64,000 nt of DNA from Risungbinella massiliensis (GTDB lineage Bacteria; Bacillota; Bacilli; Thermoactinomycetales; Thermoactinomycetaceae), in assembly GCF_000942395.1 (NCBI RefSeq), contig NZ_LN812103.1:563394-627393 (forward strand). The letters are read 5' to 3'. A program made the position numbers and the translations under genes. Each line of letters starts with the position of its first letter. The stretch's first letter is position 1. This document shows positions 32,502 to 58,318 of the stretch, piece by piece. The notes beneath the pieces are model-generated. The model saw nothing but the letters and a program-made list of their open reading frames with translations. It made no database searches and was not told the DNA's origin.

Positions 32502-32729
32502 TTACAGGAATATTACGATAACAATGGACGTTGGCAGTAATAAGAGGATAAAAAATATCACAAGAGAGATTAGGAACGCAAATAGTCGAACTCCCTGTCT
32601 ACTACGATAACTTCGCGGTCGAAAGTAGTGGATCATTGATTTCTCCATCTGATTCGCCCAATTGGGAAAAGAGAAGATCATTGCCCAACCATACAAAACA
32701 ATTCCGAGCAAAATAATTAAAAATTGCAT
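32502..32729 (-). CDS. small membrane protein, two TM helices
   Basis: The 75-residue protein has a hydrophobic N-terminus (FLIILLGIVLYGWAMIFSF), a basic loop (HYFRPRSYRSRQGVR) and a very hydrophobic C-terminus (LFAFLISLVIFFILLLLP...IVIVIFL). It is preceded by a long structured leader that resembles the leader of the next small gene, and it ends at a strong terminator. Function is unknown; small size, hydrophobicity and a structured leader recall type I toxins, which is speculation. Confidence 0.55.
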   Translation of the reverse strand: MQFLIILLGIVLYGWAMIFSFPNWANQMEKSMIHYFRPRSYRSRQGVRLFAFLISLVIFFILLLLPTSIVIVIFL

Positions 32730-32822
32730 CTCAGTTCACTCCTCATGATGTGATTAGCGAACTGAGAGTTTCAGTCCGCCAGAGTACACTCAGCAAGGAA
32801 GTGCACTCTGGCAGACTGAAAG
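32730..32822 (-). promoter_or_regulatory. structured 5' leader of the 32.5-kb membrane peptide
   Basis: On the minus strand a 20-bp hairpin H1 (arms 32820-32801 and 32789-32770, opening TTCAGTCTGCCAGAG) is followed by CTCAGTTC (32766-32759) and GAACTGAG (32737-32730), a perfect 8-bp helix that encloses the AGGAG site and abuts the ATG. Both non-Watson-Crick pairs in H1 are G-U on the minus strand but would be A-C on the plus strand, so the minus-strand RNA is the folded one. Confidence 0.65.
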
Positions 32823-33125: not shown

Positions 33126-33269
33126 TTAGGAAATGTATATAACGACTATTTTTGGACGTTTTTTAACTGCATATGTTACACCTTTGATTACTAACTGTGT
33201 GGCTCTAATACTACCAAAATAAACAGAACTAGCTACGATTAACGCTCCTGCTGTTGTAGTTACACCCAT
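33126..33269 (-). CDS. 47-residue membrane peptide
   Basis: From the ATG at 33269 (AAGGAG 9 bases upstream) the peptide has one membrane segment (AGALIVASSVYFGSIRATQLVI) and a cationic, hydrophobic tail (VKKRPKIVVIYIS). A longer frame exists, but its ATG codons lie in or before the SD. The 5' leader shares sequence and architecture with that of the 32.5-kb gene. No family recognised. Confidence 0.5.
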   Translation of the reverse strand: MGVTTTAGALIVASSVYFGSIRATQLVIKGVTYAVKKRPKIVVIYIS

Positions 33270-33363
33270 CTCAGATCGCTCCTTCATGATGAAATTTAGC
33301 GAACTAAGAGTTTCAGTCCGCCAAAGAGCGTTCTCCATCGAAAACGCTCTTTGGCGGACTGAA
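33270..33363 (-). promoter_or_regulatory. structured 5' leader of the 47-residue peptide gene
   Basis: A perfect 21-bp hairpin (arms 33363-33343 and 33332-33312, TTCAGTCCGCCAAAGAGC...) is followed by CTTAGTTC and GATCTGAG, which can pair around the AAGGAG site next to the ATG. Stem sequence, the linker GTTCGCTAA and the SD context (TCATGARGGAG) are shared with the 32.7-kb leader, so both come from one ancestral cassette. Confidence 0.65.
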
Positions 33364-35671: not shown

Positions 35672-36043
35672 CTATGGATTACTACTCAAATGCTCATGCT
35701 TTAACTTCCAAAACCCATTACCATTTTTCACAAATACATTGGTTGCTCTACCGCTACCGGATCGAAATGCATTTTGATAAAAACCTTCCCATGTATAGGT
35801 ATAAATACAAGTGGCGGAATTTTGAGCTACTGCGATCCACTTGACATCAGTAGCTGCATAAATCTCATCCTGTATCAAATTCCAAGCATTTTCAAAATAG
35901 CTTCTGATTTCATCTCTATTTACACAAGTTTTGTCGGAGAACCAATAAATTGCATTATCATCTAATACCTTTTCTACATTATCAAAATCATGTGTATTGG
36001 TAGCTTCTAAATAAGTTTGTAAAGCTTGTTGATAGTCTGTCAT
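35672..36043 (-). CDS. SnoaL/DUF4440-type NTF2-like protein
   Basis: The 123-residue protein has the cone-fold pattern of NTF2-like proteins: an N-terminal helix (YQQALQTYLEATNTHDFDNVEKVL), then ISWFSDK-like IYWFSDKTCVNRDEIRSYFENAW, and a C-terminal beta-sheet (CIYTYTWEGFYQNAFRSGSGRATNVFVKNGNGFWKLKHEHLS). Members are enzymes or ligand-binding proteins; nothing here fixes the substrate. AAGGAG stands 7 bases before the ATG. Confidence 0.75.
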   Translation of the reverse strand: MTDYQQALQTYLEATNTHDFDNVEKVLDDNAIYWFSDKTCVNRDEIRSYFENAWNLIQDEIYAATDVKWIAVAQNSATCIYTYTWEGFYQNAFRSGSGRATNVFVKNGNGFWKLKHEHLSSNP

Positions 36044-36118
36044 CTGTTTACTCCTTATTGTATTTTTAGAAAAATGCCTTCTTTTCGTGAATCTTTATGA
36101 CTTTAATACAAAAAACAT

Positions 36119-36147
36119 TTGCGGAGTAATTAGAATCATAATATAAT
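36119..36147 (+). promoter_or_regulatory. sigma-A promoter of gene A1
   Basis: TTGCGG (36119-36124), 17-base spacer, TATAAT (36142-36147). The same arrangement is kept in front of A2. Confidence 0.75.
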
Positions 36148-36167
36148 TCTACCAATCGAATAGCAAG

Positions 36168-36275
36168 CTCATCTCTGGCCTAATGCCTGGTAGACCCATT
36201 GTGGCTAGCTGATTGCATTAGGCTAGGAGGACCAACATGGTTCACTCCTGGCTATAACCATTAAGGAGTGATGAG
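36168..36275 (+). promoter_or_regulatory. structured leader of gene A1, candidate translational switch
   Basis: Possible helices: P1 CTCATC (36168-36173) with GATGAG (36270-36275), closing the leader; P2 GCCTAATGC (36178-36186) with GCATTAGGC (36215-36223); P3 GCTAGGAG (36222-36229) with CTCCTGGC (36245-36252). The P3 3' strand overlaps an anti-SD, TCACTCCT (36242-36249), which pairs perfectly with the ribosome site AGGAGTGA (36264-36271). P3 and the anti-SD helix exclude each other, so the leader has an ON and an OFF form. Confidence 0.65.
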
Positions 36276-36277
36276 TT

Positions 36278-37213
36278 ATGTGGAAAATTGGACATGATTT
36301 CAAAAATGATTTGTTGAAGAATCACCACGAATTATTGTTGCTATTCGAGAAAACGCAACAACTTAATAAAAGCAAGGTTTTCAGCATCGAAGACATGATC
36401 GAATTTTGCATCGACTCTGTAGATAAGGAAATTCGTCAGTCATCACTAAAACTATTAATCTTAAAAGATGGGAAAATTGCTCTAAAAACAAACCAACCAT
36501 TGGCGTTCAATGAATTAATTTTCTTTTATCCGCGTGATATTTCACAAGGAACGCCGACTGAACTAAAAATTTTCCACAAAAATAGTTTTAGCTATAAATC
36601 AGATTCTAGAGCCAATTCCACTTTAATTAGCCAAACAGACATTCAGGATTACTCGGAAAAATTGGAGAAAAAACAAGATGACTATCTTCTCTACTACAAA
36701 TTGTTGATCGAAGCAAAAAAAGCAGTGGCAGAAGTAAGAAAAACTGGTCAAATGACAGAAAGTAACAAATTAACATTAAAAAAACATGCTGCAGAAACTC
36801 TCTATATTTTCTTGCTTATACTAGAAGAACTAGCATCTGAGTTGAAATCGACTGGTGATATCTTGCAGTTCATTCAACGTGAAATTTCCATTTATTCGAT
36901 TGTCTGGGTTCAACAAATGGCAGCAGGTTACTGCAAGGATGCAAAAAATGTACCTAGAAGCTTTGAGTTGAACAAACCACTTGCTAGAAATCATTTAACG
37001 ATCCTTAACACGAAGGATAATAACAGCATTGGTGTAAATAAAGAAGATTTGCTAGATAAGATTACAACAATGGAACAAGTAAACAAAAAGATAAACACAC
37101 TTTTCATGACCATTAATCAAAGTAATATTTCCAAAGCCCAAGAATACTATACTGATTTTGTACTCAATGGTGATTTTGGACTGCATTCTCTTGATGAGCT
37201 CTTTGCTATGTAA
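36278..37213 (+). CDS. family A protein, copy 1 (unknown function)
   Basis: I do not recognise this 311-residue soluble protein. It is rich in Lys, Asn and Gln and mostly helical by appearance. It is related to A2 over its whole length, more than half of the residues being the same; the best-kept blocks are FCIDSV, ALKTNQPL, RKTGQMTE.NKLTLKKH, QMAAGYC, NVPRSFELNK and the C-terminus SKAQEYYTDFVLNGDFGLHS. No signal peptide or TM segment is seen. It has its own promoter, a structured leader that can hide the SD, and a hairpin terminator (37228-37254), so it is a stand-alone unit. Confidence 0.75.
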   Translation: MWKIGHDFKNDLLKNHHELLLLFEKTQQLNKSKVFSIEDMIEFCIDSVDKEIRQSSLKLLILKDGKIALKTNQPLAFNELIFFYPRDISQGTPTELKIFHKNSFSYKSDSRANSTLISQTDIQDYSEKLEKKQDDYLLYYKLLIEAKKAVAEVRKTGQMTESNKLTLKKHAAETLYIFLLILEELASELKSTGDILQFIQREISIYSIVWVQQMAAGYCKDAKNVPRSFELNKPLARNHLTILNTKDNNSIGVNKEDLLDKITTMEQVNKKINTLFMTINQSNISKAQEYYTDFVLNGDFGLHSLDELFAM

Positions 37214-37227
37214 ATCTAGAGAATGAA

Positions 37228-37254
37228 TCAGGGTGTGCTACAAGCACATCCTGA
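37228..37254 (+). terminator. hairpin after A1
   Basis: TCAGGGTGTGCT and AGCACATCCTGA form a 12-bp stem with a 3-base loop; only ATTTAT follows. The same hairpin follows A2 (38500-38525). Confidence 0.6.
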
Positions 37255-37293
37255 ATTTATGTAAACGTCTTTTTCTATCAAATACTCCTCCTT

Positions 37294-37406
37294 GCACTAA
37301 TTATAAGGAGGTAATATCGATGACGACTTTTGGAGATTTAGAATTTCTCGCTACCTTTCTATATCATATTTTTGGAAAAGTGCATCCATTTTGTAAACCT
37401 TTATGA
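37294..37406 (+). pseudogene. truncated family B gene (B remnant)
   Basis: CCTCCTT and AAGGAGG flank a loop that contains the family B leader motif GCACTAATTAT, then ATG at 37320 opens TTFGDLEFLATF, which matches the first residues of B1 (FGDLEFFASL) and B2 (FGHLHFLASF). The match stops after about 12 residues, where sequence homologous to the upstream flank of A1 begins, and a stop comes at 37406. The A2 unit has therefore cut off a former B gene. Confidence 0.75.
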
Positions 37407-37424
37407 CTTTAGCACAAAAAATCA

Positions 37425-37453
37425 TTGCAGACTAATTAGAATCATAATATAAT
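37425..37453 (+). promoter_or_regulatory. sigma-A promoter of gene A2
   Basis: TTGCAG (37425-37430), 17-base spacer, TATAAT (37448-37453); duplicated from the A1 promoter. Confidence 0.75.
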
Positions 37454-37473
37454 TCTACCAATCGAGTAGCAAG

Positions 37474-37579
37474 CTCATCTCTAGCCTAATGCCTGGTAGA
37501 CCCTTTGTGGCTAGCTGATTGCGTTAGGCTAGGAGGACCAGTTGGTTCACTCCTAGCTATACCAATAAGGGGTGATGAG
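37474..37579 (+). promoter_or_regulatory. structured leader of gene A2, candidate translational switch
   Basis: P1 CTCATC (37474-37479)/GATGAG (37574-37579); P2 GCCTAATGC (37484-37492)/GCGTTAGGC (37521-37529); P3 GCTAGGAG (37528-37535)/CTCCTAGC (37550-37557); anti-SD TCACTCCT (37547-37554) with SD AGGGGTGA (37568-37575). Against A1, the changes in P2, P3 and the SD helix each keep pairing (A-U to G-U, G-U to A-U, A-U to G-U). Confidence 0.65.
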
Positions 37580-37581
37580 TT

Positions 37582-38484
37582 ATGTTGAAAAATTTTCATG
37601 ATCTCGTGTTGCTATTCGAGAAAGCGGAAACGCTGGAAAGAAGCAATGTGTTTCACATCCAAGATATGATAGACTTTTGCATCGACTCTGTAGAGAAGGA
37701 AATTTATCAGTCATCACTTAAACTGTTCGTTCTAAAAGATGCACAAATTGCCTTGAAAACAAATCAACCATTATATTTCTATGAATTCGTTCTTTTTTAT
37801 TCACATCAGATATCATTAGGGCAACCAATTCAATTACCTACTTCACAAAAGAAGAATTTCCATTACAGCTCACATCCTAAGGCGAGTTCAACCTTAATTA
37901 AACAAGAAGGTATCCCGAAGTTATCGAACCTATTAAATAAGAAACAAGATGAATTTCTCTTCTATTACAAACAGTTGTTAGAGGCAAAAAAGGCAGTGGT
38001 AGAAGCAAGAAAAACTGGTCAAATGACGGAAGAAAACAAACTAACATTAAAAAAACATGTAGCCGAAACACTATTTATCTTTTTGCTTGTACTAGAAGAT
38101 TTAGAAGCTGAATTGAAATCAACCAGTTCGATCTTGCAGGGGATCCAATTTGAAATTTCCCATCAATCGGTTCTCTGGGTTCACCAAATGGCAGCAGGTT
38201 ACTGCAAGTATGGGAAAAATGTACCGAGAAGCTTTGAGTTGAACAAAGAGCTTGCTTCAAATAAATTATCTATTTTCAGCATAAAAGATAATAGGATTAT
38301 TGAATTAAATAAAGCAGATTTATTCGAAAAAATCATAACGATGGAAAAAGCCCAGAACAAGCTGTACCACCTTTTCAAGACAACAAAGACGAATAAGATT
38401 TCCAAAGCCCAAGAATACTATACTGATTTGGTACTCAATGGAGACTTTGGACTCCATTCTCTCGATGAACTGTTTACTTGGTAA
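37582..38484 (+). CDS. family A protein, copy 2 (unknown function)
   Basis: The 300-residue paralogue of A1 lacks about ten residues at the N-terminus (it opens MLKNFHDLVLLFEK where A1 has an insert) but is otherwise collinear, with the same conserved blocks and a tail LVLNGDFGLHSLDELFTW. Promoter, leader and downstream hairpin were duplicated with the gene. Intact frames and pairing-preserving leader changes suggest that both copies are under selection. Function unknown; nothing like a catalytic motif was seen. Confidence 0.75.
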   Translation: MLKNFHDLVLLFEKAETLERSNVFHIQDMIDFCIDSVEKEIYQSSLKLFVLKDAQIALKTNQPLYFYEFVLFYSHQISLGQPIQLPTSQKKNFHYSSHPKASSTLIKQEGIPKLSNLLNKKQDEFLFYYKQLLEAKKAVVEARKTGQMTEENKLTLKKHVAETLFIFLLVLEDLEAELKSTSSILQGIQFEISHQSVLWVHQMAAGYCKYGKNVPRSFELNKELASNKLSIFSIKDNRIIELNKADLFEKIITMEKAQNKLYHLFKTTKTNKISKAQEYYTDLVLNGDFGLHSLDELFTW

Positions 38485-38499
38485 ATTTAGAGAATGAAT

Positions 38500-38525
38500 C
38501 AGGGTGTGCTACAAAGCACATCCTG
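38500..38525 (+). terminator. hairpin after A2
   Basis: CAGGGTGTGCT and AGCACATCCTG pair (one G-U), as after A1. Confidence 0.55.
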
Positions 38526-38581
38526 TATTTATGTAATCATCAATTTATTATTTAGACATATCTAATGGTACGATTTATTCG

Positions 38582-38587
38582 TATAAT
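38582..38587 (+). promoter_or_regulatory. -10 element of gene B1
   Basis: CGTATAAT occurs before both B1 and B2, each 15-21 bases before the first leader hairpin, with a shared ACATATC about 24 bases further upstream in place of a normal -35. Confidence 0.45.
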
Positions 38588-38602
38588 GATTGTATCCCAT
38601 AA

Positions 38603-38697
38603 CTCCTCCTTGACCTAGTGGAATTCCTTTTTATGGATTCTAGTAGGTCAAGGAGGAGAGGTATAGCCTCCTTGCACTAACCATAAGGAGGTTATAC
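38603..38697 (+). promoter_or_regulatory. two-hairpin leader of gene B1, SD buried in the second
   Basis: H1: CTCCTCCTTGACCTA (38603-38617) with TAGGTCAAGGAGGAG (38644-38658), 15 bp perfect, extended inside by GAATTCC/GGATTC. H2: GTATAGCCTCCTT (38661-38673) with AAGGAGGTTATAC (38685-38697), 13 bp with one G-U, burying the whole SD three bases before the ATG. The H1 3' strand also contains AAGGAGG and could compete with the true SD for CCTCCTT. Confidence 0.7.
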
Positions 38698-38699
38698 CA

Positions 38700-39563
38700 A
38701 TGAAGTTTGGAGACTTAGAATTTTTTGCTAGTCTTCCGGTGAGCTATCATTCTAGGGATTGGTTGATTCAGGATTATCATTATTTATTAGATGAATATTT
38801 TTATGGTGCAACACGATCGGAAATCAACACGGAACTACAAACATTGTTAAAAATTACAAATAATCTTCGTAGTGAACACTCTATCTATCATCTAAACAAT
38901 TTTATTTTTGCATTTAATAATCCTAGAGACTTTGAGATGCCATCGTATCTAAATAATATCCCTAAATTAAGCAAGGGAAGTTATATTATTGCAGATTGTG
39001 TTTCGGAAACCATGAATTCGTTAAAGTTAAACGAAGTAAATGATCTGATAATTGATCTCTACCAAGAATCGAAGGAATTAAAAATAGATCAACAAGAAAT
39101 AGGGAAACTTTATCGATATTTTATGGAGAATCAAAAAAAGGTTTTGGAACTGAAACCGAGTGGCGACCCTCAAGAGGACTTTGGGTACTTCATCTATTTA
39201 AATGAAATCCAGAATTGGCTTTATAAACACCAAATGGAACTGGAAGGGTATATTGAATTTTATGATACGCTGTTAAGTTATTTTGATAACTTTGAAACAG
39301 TCGTGTATTTTCCTACTCTCACTGTTCCGTTACAGTCTGGAATGAAGTTTGATGATAACCTCAATAAGTTACTGTCAGCACAACCATTGAACTTAAAGGG
39401 GCTTATCATTAGTAATGGAAAGAATGCTATCCATTACGACTTATATTACTTGGTTGATTGGGTAAACATGCTTTCCATCAAGTTGAAGGATATCGAAAAA
39501 CTATCTGCTTCTATTTCGAAAGTGGAAGTGGAATTTCTTACTTGCCACTTACAACTACGTTAA
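38700..39563 (+). CDS. family B protein, copy 1 (unknown function)
   Basis: I do not recognise this 287-residue soluble protein. It is acidic to neutral and mainly helical, with a central conserved patch shared with B2: VNDLIID, LKPSGDP/WNPCGEY, LNEIQ/LQQIQ.W..KH, and FETVVYFPTLTVPLQSG against FELVVYFPILTVPMEKG, then GLIISNGKNAI against GLLMGNGKNLI. The N-terminus FGDLEFFASLPVSYHSRDW also matches. There is no TM segment or signal peptide. It has its own -10, leader and terminator (39590-39625). Confidence 0.72.
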   Translation: MKFGDLEFFASLPVSYHSRDWLIQDYHYLLDEYFYGATRSEINTELQTLLKITNNLRSEHSIYHLNNFIFAFNNPRDFEMPSYLNNIPKLSKGSYIIADCVSETMNSLKLNEVNDLIIDLYQESKELKIDQQEIGKLYRYFMENQKKVLELKPSGDPQEDFGYFIYLNEIQNWLYKHQMELEGYIEFYDTLLSYFDNFETVVYFPTLTVPLQSGMKFDDNLNKLLSAQPLNLKGLIISNGKNAIHYDLYYLVDWVNMLSIKLKDIEKLSASISKVEVEFLTCHLQLR

Positions 39564-39589
39564 AGAGAAATGATGATTCTTTTTAACAA

Positions 39590-39625
39590 AGGTGTATGTC
39601 CAATGATGGGCATACACCTATTTTA
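39590..39625 (+). terminator. terminator of B1
   Basis: AGGTGTATGTCC and GGGCATACACCT pair (one G-U) followed by ATTTTATTTT. Confidence 0.75.
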
Positions 39626-39716
39626 TTTTAAGAAAGAGTTTGGAATGTAGTATAAAATTATAATATTTGTACATATCAAATTACGGAATGAACCCGTATA
39701 ATAGACATTAGTCCAA

Positions 39717-39815
39717 CTCTCCTCCTTGACCTAGTGGAATTCCTTTTTAATCGGATTCTAGTAGGTCAAGGAGGAGAGGTATTGCCTCCTTGCACAAATT
39801 AAAAGGAGGTAATAC
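39717..39815 (+). promoter_or_regulatory. two-hairpin leader of gene B2, SD buried in the second
   Basis: H1: arms 39717-39733 and 39762-39778, 17 bp perfect. H2: GTATTGCCTCCTT (39779-39791) with AAGGAGGTAATAC (39803-39815). Compared with B1, the fifth pair of H2 has changed from A-U to U-A, a compensatory double change, and the G-U next to it is kept. A TATAAT lies at 39697-39702. Confidence 0.72.
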
Positions 39816-39817
39816 AG

Positions 39818-40708
39818 ATGAAATCGTTTGGACACTTACATTTTTTAGCCTCTTTTCCAGTGAGTATGAAGTCATCGGAGTGGACAGTCGAGATATATGA
39901 GAAATTATTAGGAGAATTATACTATCGATTAACTCAAGAGGAACTAGCTTTAGAACTACGAGATCTTGAAAAGATTGCAAACCAGTTACGACAAGGGAAC
40001 TCAGTTTATCAATTTCATAATCTGGTTGTGGGATATAATCTCTCTCAAACTGGGAATCGTTCTTCTTATATATCGCCGTATATCGAGCAAATACCGAAAT
40101 TAAGTCACAAAAACTATATTAGAGCTGATTTTGATACTGAGTATCATCATGTCCTTCGAGTAGATGATGTAAATAACCTAATAATTGATAATTACCAAAA
40201 ACAAAAAAATTTACGTCTAAATCAATTCAAAATAAATCTAAGCAATCGTGAGTTGGATCCGAAATCAACCATTCTAGACTGGAATCCATGTGGCGAATAT
40301 GAAAAAGACTGTTATCATGTCGCATTTCTCCAACAAATTCAGAAATGGTTGATGAAACATTTGGTGGAATTTCGCGAGCATGTGGATTTCTATAAGAAAA
40401 ACGTAATCGTACACTTTGATCAATTTGAACTCGTTGTATATTTCCCGATCTTAACTGTTCCGATGGAAAAAGGAAAAGATTTCAATGTAGCTTTGAATCT
40501 GGCAGTTGCATCGCAACAAGTGATAGGTACGGTACCAGCTTCAAAGCTTAGTGGGTTACTAATGGGGAACGGGAAAAATCTGATTCCTTACAGTAAGTTC
40601 AACTTCTTAGACTTAGTTGAAAAACTAGAAAATAAATTAATTATTATGGAGCAATTGATCGAAGCAATAACGGAAGTAGAAGTGAAGTTTGTAACTCATT
40701 ATTTGTAA
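39818..40708 (+). CDS. family B protein, copy 2 (unknown function)
   Basis: The 296-residue paralogue of B1 is more diverged than the A pair but keeps FASFPVS, the helical first quarter (YEKLLGELYYRLTQEELALEL), VDDVNNLIIDNYQ, WNPCGEYEKDCY, VVYFPILTVPMEKG and GLLMGNGKNLI. It contains two cysteines in the central patch that B1 does not share. Its leader, -10 and terminator are the duplicated B cassette. Function unknown. Confidence 0.72.
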   Translation: MKSFGHLHFLASFPVSMKSSEWTVEIYEKLLGELYYRLTQEELALELRDLEKIANQLRQGNSVYQFHNLVVGYNLSQTGNRSSYISPYIEQIPKLSHKNYIRADFDTEYHHVLRVDDVNNLIIDNYQKQKNLRLNQFKINLSNRELDPKSTILDWNPCGEYEKDCYHVAFLQQIQKWLMKHLVEFREHVDFYKKNVIVHFDQFELVVYFPILTVPMEKGKDFNVALNLAVASQQVIGTVPASKLSGLLMGNGKNLIPYSKFNFLDLVEKLENKLIIMEQLIEAITEVEVKFVTHYL

Positions 40709-40738
40709 TGTTAAAGAAGGTGTATATTCTTTAACAAA

Positions 40739-40775
40739 GGTGTATGTCCATTTATTGGATATACACCGTTTTTAT
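40739..40775 (+). terminator. terminator of B2
   Basis: GGTGTATGTCC and GGATATACACC pair (one G-U) followed by GTTTTTATTTT. Confidence 0.75.
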
Positions 40776-40832
40776 TTTGTAGCCAATGGAAGGATCAGAT
40801 ATCTTGGAGTGTTTTTTCCTTACATTCAGCAA

Positions 40833-42077
40833 TCACGCATCTTTTGTAGGTTGATAGTAACGCGCTTTTGACGGTTGAAAGTTGAATATACATAGCGTAA
40901 TTGCAAGTAACAACATCACGAGTGTACCTACTATTACCACAATCTGAATCCCAATGAGCTCTGTCGATAATCCCACAATAATAGTTGTAATGATGATAAA
41001 CAATGCTTCGATCCATCCGTATATACTTCCAACTCTACCCATTACATCAACTGGTATATTATTTTGATAAAAGGTCAAAAAGCCTGTATTTGCAAAAGCA
41101 AGAAAAAAGGCTAGAATAAAAAATCCGAAGGCTGCGATAAAAAAGGAGTTGGAAAAAGCATAGATGATATAACCGACTGATACAAATACAGATCCAAAGC
41201 CAATTAACCACGAAGTTTCTATTTTTGTTACAACAAGTGTGTTAACCATCGCCCCTGCAGCTATACCTACTCCAGCAATACTCACCAGAAAACCATAATC
41301 ACTATCTGATAAATGAAGTACTTCTTTGGCAAACGCAGCTTCTAGTGAGTCTAGAGCAGTTGCCATCACTACTATCACACAACTAAATAAAAAGTAAATG
41401 AACATAATGTATGGGGATTTACGACTAAAGTTCCAAACAAGGAGCCAATCCTTTTTTAGTAGTTTCCAAGATATTTTGGTATGAGAAGTGTGATTGGTAA
41501 GAGTTTGTTTTTCAAGATCAGGCATGAACAAAGTAATGATTCCTGATACGAATAAGGAGATGGCATTCACGTAGATAGCTAAGATTGGAGAACCAGTTAA
41601 AAAAAGTATTCCTGCGATAGCTGGTCCAATTAGAAAAGCCCCCGATTGAATTACACTAAGGAGAGAGTTATACCGTTTTCTTTGATCAGATGGTATTAAC
41701 TTGGTAATGTAAGCCGTGGATGCAGGTCTGAACATAGAGCTCGCCATATTGATTACAAAGACAATGCAGTATATAGACCAAATCGATGTAACAAATGGTA
41801 AAAAGACAATCCATATAGCTCGAAATAGATCAAGGAGGACCATTAGGTTTCGTTTGTTAAACCGGTCTATCATGCTACCTGACCAACTATTTGTAAATAA
41901 TGAAGCCAATGGTTTGATGATGTATAGAGCAGATACAGCAAAAGGTGAGCCAGACATATCTAGTACCATTAGGTTTAGAGCAATGAAATAGATCCATTCC
42001 CCTAGGTTAGAGACTCCAATGCCAAATAAGAGAATAAAAGGGTATTTCCAAGACTTCATTAATTTTGCTCCAATCAT
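40833..42077 (-). CDS. MFS transporter
   Basis: The 414-residue protein has twelve likely membrane helices and resembles the MFS_3/EntS-type drug or siderophore exporters: FGIGVSNLGEWIYFIALNLMV at the N-terminus, then SWSGSMIDRFNKRNLM (the loop 2-3 motif A region) and ISLFVSGIITLFMPDL. The start is the ATG at 42077 with AGGGGGAA just upstream; a longer frame to 42098 has no SD. It is transcribed toward the B2 gene. Substrate unknown. Confidence 0.87.
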   Translation of the reverse strand: MIGAKLMKSWKYPFILLFGIGVSNLGEWIYFIALNLMVLDMSGSPFAVSALYIIKPLASLFTNSWSGSMIDRFNKRNLMVLLDLFRAIWIVFLPFVTSIWSIYCIVFVINMASSMFRPASTAYITKLIPSDQRKRYNSLLSVIQSGAFLIGPAIAGILFLTGSPILAIYVNAISLFVSGIITLFMPDLEKQTLTNHTSHTKISWKLLKKDWLLVWNFSRKSPYIMFIYFLFSCVIVVMATALDSLEAAFAKEVLHLSDSDYGFLVSIAGVGIAAGAMVNTLVVTKIETSWLIGFGSVFVSVGYIIYAFSNSFFIAAFGFFILAFFLAFANTGFLTFYQNNIPVDVMGRVGSIYGWIEALFIIITTIIVGLSTELIGIQIVVIVGTLVMLLLAITLCIFNFQPSKARYYQPTKDA

Positions 42078-58039: not shown

Positions 58040-58318
58040 GAAGAAAAGCGATAGTGAAGAGTAGTAAAAAGCGAACTCATCTTAGAGAATTGGCGGTTGG
58101 TGTAAGCCAATATGAGAAACCTTTTGAACTCGCTTCATTTGCTCCAAAGGTGAACTAGATAAGTAGCCTTTGGCGATTGATCCTCGTTACTGGATTTTGA
58201 GTGAGTATCTTCTTTTGATAAGAGGGTGCTAATCAGGGTGGTACCGCGGGAAGCTTTGTAATGTTTATAACAGCCTCTCGTCCCTAGTAGTTTTGCTACT
58301 GGGGACGAGAGGCTTTTT
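58040..58318 (+). ncRNA. T-box leader of leuS (tRNA-Leu sensing)
   Basis: AGGGTGGTACCGCG is at 58235-58248, followed by a strong terminator (AGCCTCTCGTCCC with GGGGACGAGAGGCT, then TTTTTGG near 58317). CTC at 58129-58131, followed by a purine and the likely lower stem I strand, is a leucine codon and the probable specifier. Confidence 0.92.

Follow-up and report, generated by a model that had tools for sequence, protein, structure and literature searches.

The window analysed here, the whole stretch of 64,000 nucleotides, contains two neighboring genes, B1 and B2, whose Shine–Dalgarno (SD) sequences are predicted to be buried in RNA hairpins, and this raises the question of how translation of these genes is controlled. 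A sequence-only reading of the locus had proposed that each leader folds into a long hairpin, H1, followed by a hairpin, H2, with the whole SD in its 3′ arm, that the 3′ strand of H1 repeats the SD, and that one pair of H2 is swapped between the copies. Folding and alignment confirmed each of these points.

The leaders of B1 and B2 fold into two consecutive hairpins

38582-38587, + strand: TATAAT −10 element of B1, recognized by sequence, 15 nt before H1
38603-38658, + strand: H1 of B1 (strand 1, 38603-38617; strand 2, 38644-38658), with covariation
38660-38698, + strand: H2 of B1, 15 bp (strand 3, 38660-38674; strand 4, 38684-38698), with covariation
38700-39563, + strand: gene B1, 287 aa, without an accepted family
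39697-39702, + strand: TATAAT −10 element of B2, recognized by sequence, 14 nt before H1
39717-39778, + strand: H1 of B2, outer stem of 17 bp plus 8 pairs
39779-39815, + strand: H2 of B2, 13 bp (strand 3, 39779-39791; strand 4, 39803-39815)
39818-40708, + strand: gene B2, 296 aa, 38-39% identical to B1

The folding data showed that H1 of B1 consists of 15 outer pairs and an 8-pair upper stem, and that the SD, AAGGAGG, is located inside strand 4 of H2 in both B1 (38685-38691; start codon at 38700) and B2 (39803-39809; start codon at 39818). The same AAGGAGG sequence is repeated within strand 2 of H1 at 38650-38656 in B1 and at 39768-39774 in B2. The minimum free energy z-scores were −9.0 for the B1 leader and −10.7 for the B2 leader, and for each of them none of 200 dinucleotide shuffles folded as well. 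When the window was scanned for perfect inverted repeats (arms of at least 14 bp, loops of at most 30), five places were detected, two of which are the H1 hairpins of B1 and B2, and a third that of C2, a leader of another class described below. The swap of an A-U for a U-A pair in H2 is real, and it corresponds to columns 67/99 in an alignment (A13) of B1, B2, and a further leader, B4.

The TATAAT sequences are placed 15 and 14 nt before the H1 hairpins of B1 and B2, so that H1 should lie close to the 5′ end of the RNA; the transcript of B1 is predicted to start about 8 nt upstream of H1. A consensus promoter scan did not give a promoter-like match at the TATAAT site of B1. On both strands of the region 36000-41000, which were scanned as a check for an antisense antitoxin, there were 18 promoter-like sites versus 20.4 expected. 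The leaders of B1 and B2 are 88% identical, the coding parts 58%, and the 120 nt upstream 56%, and the likeness of the leaders could result from recent gene conversion.

Opening of the SD is predicted to be most costly in the B genes

The cost of opening the SD was calculated for 53 genes with an SD-like motif, which were mechanically listed from the window and two loci; the opened motif was 4-7 nt long, so the genes are not strictly alike. The four highest values, 17.5, 17.0, 14.4, and 11.6 kcal/mol, were those of B1, B2, and two further genes with leaders of this type, B3 and B4, while the remaining 49 genes, including A1 and A3, required at most 9.8 kcal/mol, with a median of 2.9. Five other genes with the full AAGGAGG motif could be opened at 1.1-6.2 kcal/mol. 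The H2 pairing (3:4) taken alone amounted to −18.6, −18.0, −21.0, and −15.5 kcal/mol in B1 to B4. Hence, the earlier suggestion that translation is off by default is well supported as a prediction, and it is the best supported part of the mechanism discussed below; the support is computational, and we infer from it that the same holds in cells.

The fold is conserved in further copies within the genome

36163-36280, + strand: A1 leader, four-strand logic in a multibranch fold
36278-37213, + strand: gene A1, 311 aa, without an accepted family
37266-37406, + strand: B0 remnant, a shortened B-type leader and a B-like open frame, with weak model matches (21.0 and 19.0 bits)
37471-37584, + strand: A2 leader, four-strand plan in a multibranch fold
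37582-38484, + strand: gene A2, 300 aa, 64% identical to A1
L011 6880-6991, − strand: A3 leader, multibranch fold

On the + strand, the genes A1, A2, B1, and B2 follow one another (36278-40708), and the B0 remnant is placed between A1 and A2. In the leader of B0 a strand 1-like sequence is joined onto an H2-like loop and SD, which looks from its sequence like a deletion between the repeats of strands 1 and 3, and a B-like open frame of 28 codons follows (37320-37406). Nearly identical hairpins, CAGGGTGTGCT...AGCACATCCTG, without a long T run are present after A1 (37228-37254) and A2 (38500-38525), and by eye a similar one is present after A3; it is possible that they are weak terminators separating A from B.

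A second A-B pair, A3 and B3, was found on another contig of the same genome. The B4 gene, which stands singly, was identified with a covariance model built on the leaders of B1, B2, and B3 (46.7 bits, B4 left out), and in the reverse test a model built from B1, B2, and B4 (R3) detected B3 with 51.6 bits and recovered the same four leaders. B3 folds like the other B leaders, with partly different arms; the z-scores of the H1 and H2 fold were −7.7 for B3 and −9.7 for B4, and in neither case did any of 200 shuffles fold as well. A B-type H1 sequence pattern had three matches in the genome, and a looser one seven, four of which were B1-B4, compared with four in the control.

The covariation was counted for B1, B2, and B4, with B3 set aside. 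In this alignment 98.1% of the 107 cells were paired, and 10 of the 36 pairs were altered on both sides and still paired (eight of 23 pairs in H1 and two of 13 in H2), which was not reached by any of 500 shuffles; when the register was slid, at most one such pair remained. B1 and B2 differ very little in their H1 arms, so that this pair alone yields little covariation and B4 supplies almost all of it: nine of the 10 both-sided changes mark off B4, and the tenth, the A-U/U-A swap, marks off B1. As B1 and B2 are close copies, these changes correspond to few events. Neither B4 nor B3, which folds alike, was visible to the earlier reading. Homologs with an unstructured SD, which would argue against the proposed lock, were not encountered, as the SDs of B3 and B4 are buried; this is not a clean test, because no relationship of the B3 or B4 protein to B1 and B2 could be detected (shuffle z at most 2.1). 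As judged from sequence, the B class is defined by its leaders and not by its proteins.

An exact TATAAT was also present 8 nt before H1 of B4 and 14 nt before H1 of C2, while none was found for C1 or between A3 and the B3 leader. The A3-B3 pair is located between genes that we take from their translations to be polX-like and mutS2-like (L011), and B4 beside a presumably mutS-like gene (L031), which is probably a chance neighborhood. About 2 kb from B4, at the beginning of contig C6, there is an open reading frame (L031 45-596) that we presume to be transposase-like.

The A and B proteins diverge strongly and relatives were found only in the same genome

The A and B proteins have sizes of 259-311 aa. 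When seven proteins were compared, A3 proved to be clearly, though distantly, related to A1 and A2 (E 7e-11 and 5e-12). A relationship between A and B proteins was not supported in profile comparison; in pairwise comparisons A1 and B3 gave a local z of 5.0 (E 2.6e-4 within the set of seven, uncorrected for composition), A2 and B4 gave 2.7 in local and 3.7 in semi-global mode, and other A-B pairs were lower. The seven proteins had no Pfam match at cut-off and a best E of 0.02 in PHROGs, and for A1, A2, B1, and B2 the NCBIfam search was empty, while PADLOC weakly matched only B2, to three HerA models (best E 2.3e-4, 18.5 bits, about 70 aa). The predicted fold of A1 had a pLDDT of 69.8 and a pTM of 0.71; that of B1 (pLDDT 43.5) was left unused. 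Foldseek found nothing for the A1 model at E 0.001, and its ClyA rows, with E of 0.5 or worse, were too weak to count. The best VIA-align match of A1 (Z 5.7, rmsd 4.5, 156 aligned) was at a level common for helical proteins. The sequence search against PDB gave a best E of 1.2 for the A profile and 0.16 for the B profile. The divergence, the duplication, and the remnant suggest that these genes could be under conflict-type selection.

No relative of the proteins or leaders was accepted outside this genome, among the 38-150 other genomes covered per search. Homologs of B1 and of A1 were each absent from 150 other genomes, and those of the A profile from 60; none were found for B1 or the A profile in viral contigs, or for B2 or the A1-A2 profile in genome contigs. 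Otherwise, B2 and A2 as single queries were searched in their own genome, and the profile searched in relatives was that of A. The leader models R1 (B) and R2 (A) had no matches in 100 other genomes under strict filters with some candidates scored per genome, and the C-leader pattern occurred in this genome and in none of 100 others. The R3 model matched one of 38 other genomes (G022, 31.2 bits, E 0.002), but this hairpin was dropped as no open reading frame of at least 60 aa starts behind it. Single matches of the B-type H1 pattern in four of 60 other genomes were judged by eye and taken as chance, and antisense-strand model matches on the same leaders, which were hairpins read backwards, were set aside. 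A search of the whole window against Rfam release 15, which covers the leaders inside the window (those of B3, B4, and A3 lie outside it), had no leader match at gathering score, and the subthreshold matches were only to miRNA, snoRNA, and lncRNA families. The sole Rfam match in the window is a T-box (RF00230) at 58042-58288 with 124.8 bits. Among open-licence papers no description of these leaders was found.

Four strands of the B leaders allow alternative pairings

In each B leader strand 1 resembles strand 3, and strand 2 resembles strand 4, so that besides 1:2 (H1) and 3:4 (H2) a 2:3 helix can form, with a length of 8 bp in the B1 and B2 leaders and of 9-11 bp in those of B3 and B4. It had been suggested that when H1 is opened its 3′ strand could take the anti-SD. 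The calculations support the possibility of 2:3 pairing, but this is not sufficient to expose the SD, because the freed strand 1, itself an anti-SD, pairs with it again. When 2:3 was forced, the lowest-energy fold paired 1:4 in all four B leaders, and with strand 1 present the cost of opening the SD was 9.2, 8.8, 12.0, and 7.1 kcal/mol in B1 to B4. Hence, both arrangements are off, which amounts to a double lock. When strand 1 was omitted the cost was 6.2, 4.6, 1.4, and 4.1 for RNAs ending at the start codon, and 6.1, 13.3, 1.8, and 3.9 with a longer downstream stretch; the loss of strand 1 therefore lowers the cost strongly, save for B2 in one of the two contexts.

The outcome depends on how much of the RNA is present. 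In nascent RNA reaching to strand 3 and lacking strand 1, the 2:3 helix was formed in all seven A and B leaders, although its register was shifted in A3. When strand 1 was kept, 1:2 formed in the nascent B leaders and in A3, while in A1 and A2 the 2:3 pairing prevailed over 1:2. Once strand 4 was made, 3:4 was still the lowest-energy pairing of strand 1-free B1, B2, and B3, and among the B leaders only B4 switched outright, which implies that a switch in B1, B2, and B3 would need timing during RNA synthesis.

The specificity of the 2:3 pairing was also compared among nine leaders, including those of classes A and C. The energy of the own 2:3 duplex was −13.4 or better in all nine. In B4, strand 2 fits its own strand 3 best (−14.7, versus −4.8 to −10.7 for other strands 3), and strands 1, 2, and 3 are altered together at one position. 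Compared by eye with the 16S tail, strand 2 of B4 is a poor SD match and yet it pairs with strand 3. On the other hand, the covariation of 2:3 alone is a weak test, with one both-sided pair, which was reached by 175 of 500 shuffles. For B1, B2, and B3, respectively, 12, 19, and 4 of 500 shuffled strands paired as well, and part of this pairing arises because the sequence is SD-like. Strand 2 of B1 fits strand 3 of B3 (−15.5) better than its own (−13.5), and the A3 strand 2 with B1 (−14.9) and the A2 strand 2 with C2 (−14.1) are further cross-fits; such cross-pairings, about as strong as the own ones, weigh against specific selection for 2:3.

The A and C leaders share the four-strand plan

32729-32821, − strand: C1 leader, 23-bp H1 (32769-32821) and H2 (32729-32767) over the initiation region
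32502-32729, − strand: small ORF C1, 75 aa, hydrophobic by eye
33269-33363, − strand: C2 leader, 24-bp H1 (33312-33363) and H2 (33269-33309)
33126-33269, − strand: small ORF C2, 47 aa, hydrophobic by eye, start picked by its SD

The C leaders have the same plan, with the repeat GGACUGA/UCAGUUC, which is not an SD. They are less tight than the B leaders (10.2 and 3.9 kcal/mol). The 2:3 pairing of C1 and of C2 was reached by none of 500 shuffles each, and strand 2 of the C leaders matches strand 3 of its own class (−13.4 to −15.6), though not that of B (−2.4 to −6.6). When strand 1 was removed, C2 adopted a 13-bp 2:3 helix, of a sequence unrelated to B, while C1 kept 3:4. The decoy SD noted upstream of H2 is thus present in B1 and B2 but is not a constant feature, and strand 2 of B4 together with the C leaders points to the topology, rather than the mimicry of the SD, as what is conserved.

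In the A leaders, CTCATC/GATGAG (GGTGAG in A3) beside the start codon closes a multibranch fold, with z-scores of −3.8, −2.9 (three of 200 shuffles as good), and −4.7 for A1 to A3. Opening of seven nucleotides at 37°C requires 4.6-6.0 kcal/mol in these leaders, and shorter motifs in A1 and A3 require 2.0 and 2.7 kcal/mol. The difference in energy between the 2:3 and 3:4 states was 5.4, −0.2, and 1.2 kcal/mol for A1 to A3, which places A2 and A3 near balance. The internal sequence of H1 is partly conserved among the A leaders. In A1 and A2, strand 3 extends into GGC/AGC, which pairs with strand 2; in A1, part of this extension can pair inside the 3:4 hairpin too.

Proposed mechanism and its alternatives

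We propose that the B leaders are translational locks, which would become readable once strand 1 is removed or captured and 2:3 forms before strand 4, a reading that we hold tentatively and regard as having a little less than an even chance. It builds on the computed 1:2 and 3:4 pairings, their covariation, the repeats, and the energy costs, from which we infer the off state in cells, the step at strand 1, and any opening signal. By default, H2 would bury the whole SD and the protein would not be made. If 2:3 formed with strand 1 present, strand 1 would take the SD (1:4) as a second lock. The lock could be opened by removal or capture of strand 1, through cleavage of H1, an RNA or protein binding strand 1, or a transcript starting inside H1; with strand 1 gone, 2:3 would form ahead of the synthesis of strand 4, and the SD would be left free.

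The strongest competitor is permanent silencing, in which H2 simply keeps B translation very low, H1 stabilizes the 5′ end, and 2:3 is a by-product of H1/H2 duplication. This explanation agrees with the strength of 3:4 alone in B1-B4 (−15.5 to −21.0 kcal/mol), with the preference for 3:4 in three of four B leaders freed of strand 1, and with the weak 2:3 covariation test. It does not account well for the 2:3 complementarity that outlasts divergence, as in the joint change of strands 1, 2, and 3 in B4, for the 13-bp 2:3 helix of unrelated sequence in C2 without strand 1, or for the run of strand 3 into the GGC/AGC pairing in A1 and A2, and we consider it unlikely, albeit with a considerable chance.

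Another possibility is a metabolite- or protein-binding riboswitch, of which the A leaders would be the sensing form. The A leaders, with their fold z-scores of −2.9 to −4.7 and partly conserved H1 interior, are nearer to the balance of 2:3 and 3:4, and nascent A1 and A2 already favor 2:3 over 1:2 with strand 1 present. The B leaders resemble T-box leaders and riboswitches in having exclusive folds ahead of a downstream gene. However, the leaders in the window differ from these in having no Rfam match at gathering score, and the H1 hairpins of B and C have almost perfect stems, with small loops that differ from one another and no common aptamer, which makes this explanation rather improbable.

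In erm attenuators the pairings 1:2 and 3:4 compete against 2:3, with the SD in strand 4, and the B leaders have the same exclusive arrangement, 2:3 being supported there by complementarity and energy; yxjB of B. subtilis is a related case. In such a mechanism, a ribosome that stalls in a short frame further upstream would cover strand 1, so that 2:3 forms and the SD is free. In contrast to erm, strand 1 of the B leaders is near the 5′ end and is itself able to trap the SD. The distances from TATAAT to H1 are only 15, 14, 8, and 14 nt (B1, B2, B4, and C2), and none of the nine leaders had a start codon before or inside strand 1 whose SD match reached 5 nt, as a leader peptide would require. 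A start codon does follow the decoy SD with a match of at least 6 nt in A1, A2, B2, and B3 (5 nt in B1), while none was found in A3, B4, C1, and C2; the short frames of A1 and A2 both open with VHS after the start, and the others share no peptide. A leader-peptide attenuator is unlikely for the B leaders, and we give this explanation very little chance. An RNA thermometer, in which H2 would melt on heating, is scarcely credible: the SD does sit in a hairpin as in thermometers, and heat had been raised as the opening signal, which is unlikely, but calculations in a slightly different context left the SDs of B1-B4 at a cost of 7.9-11.4 kcal/mol at 60°C and 5.2-8.3 kcal/mol at 70°C, so that H2 is by calculation too stable to melt at these temperatures, and the values give no sign of an SD release in the growth range.

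The lock that we propose is a variant of already known SD-masking leader designs. In type I toxin mRNAs, such as AapA3, Hok, TimP, and others, an anti-SD close by covers the SD of the primary transcript, mutually exclusive hairpins follow one another, and the message is activated when it is processed or refolds (PMC6733600, PMC11228461). In B1-B4 the SD is, in silico, similarly masked by an anti-SD within the mRNA (11.6-17.5 kcal/mol). Known type I toxins are small. The A and B proteins, in contrast, are 259-311 aa long and thus are not small hydrophobic toxins, which argues against counting them among type I systems; in size, the C ORFs alone (75 and 47 aa) are similar to these toxins, and they lie outside the finding on the B leaders.

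Because the arms and loops of H1 differ between the classes, a common base-pairing partner is unlikely. What all have in common is a long hairpin close to the 5′ end, with its first strand as the key, so that removal or capture of strand 1 would be the simplest common opening step; for B3 and C1 the location of H1 at the 5′ end has no TATAAT support. A broader, doubtful extension is that the nine leaders of classes A, B, and C share a sequence-independent design, made of a long 5′ hairpin and a hairpin of repeated strands, and that they would keep silent a regulon made up of proteins confined to the lineage and of small membrane peptides, all released together once a general event, for instance the cutting or unwinding of double-stranded RNA, acts on the 5′ hairpin.

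The better conservation of the B1 and B2 leaders than of their coding parts, together with the occurrence of B-type leaders before proteins that cannot be aligned, suggests that the control element may define the set. If the proposed reading is right, this locked-mRNA design would extend over a small regulon and place two locks on a single SD, with no leader peptide, thermometer, or aptamer evident in the lock.
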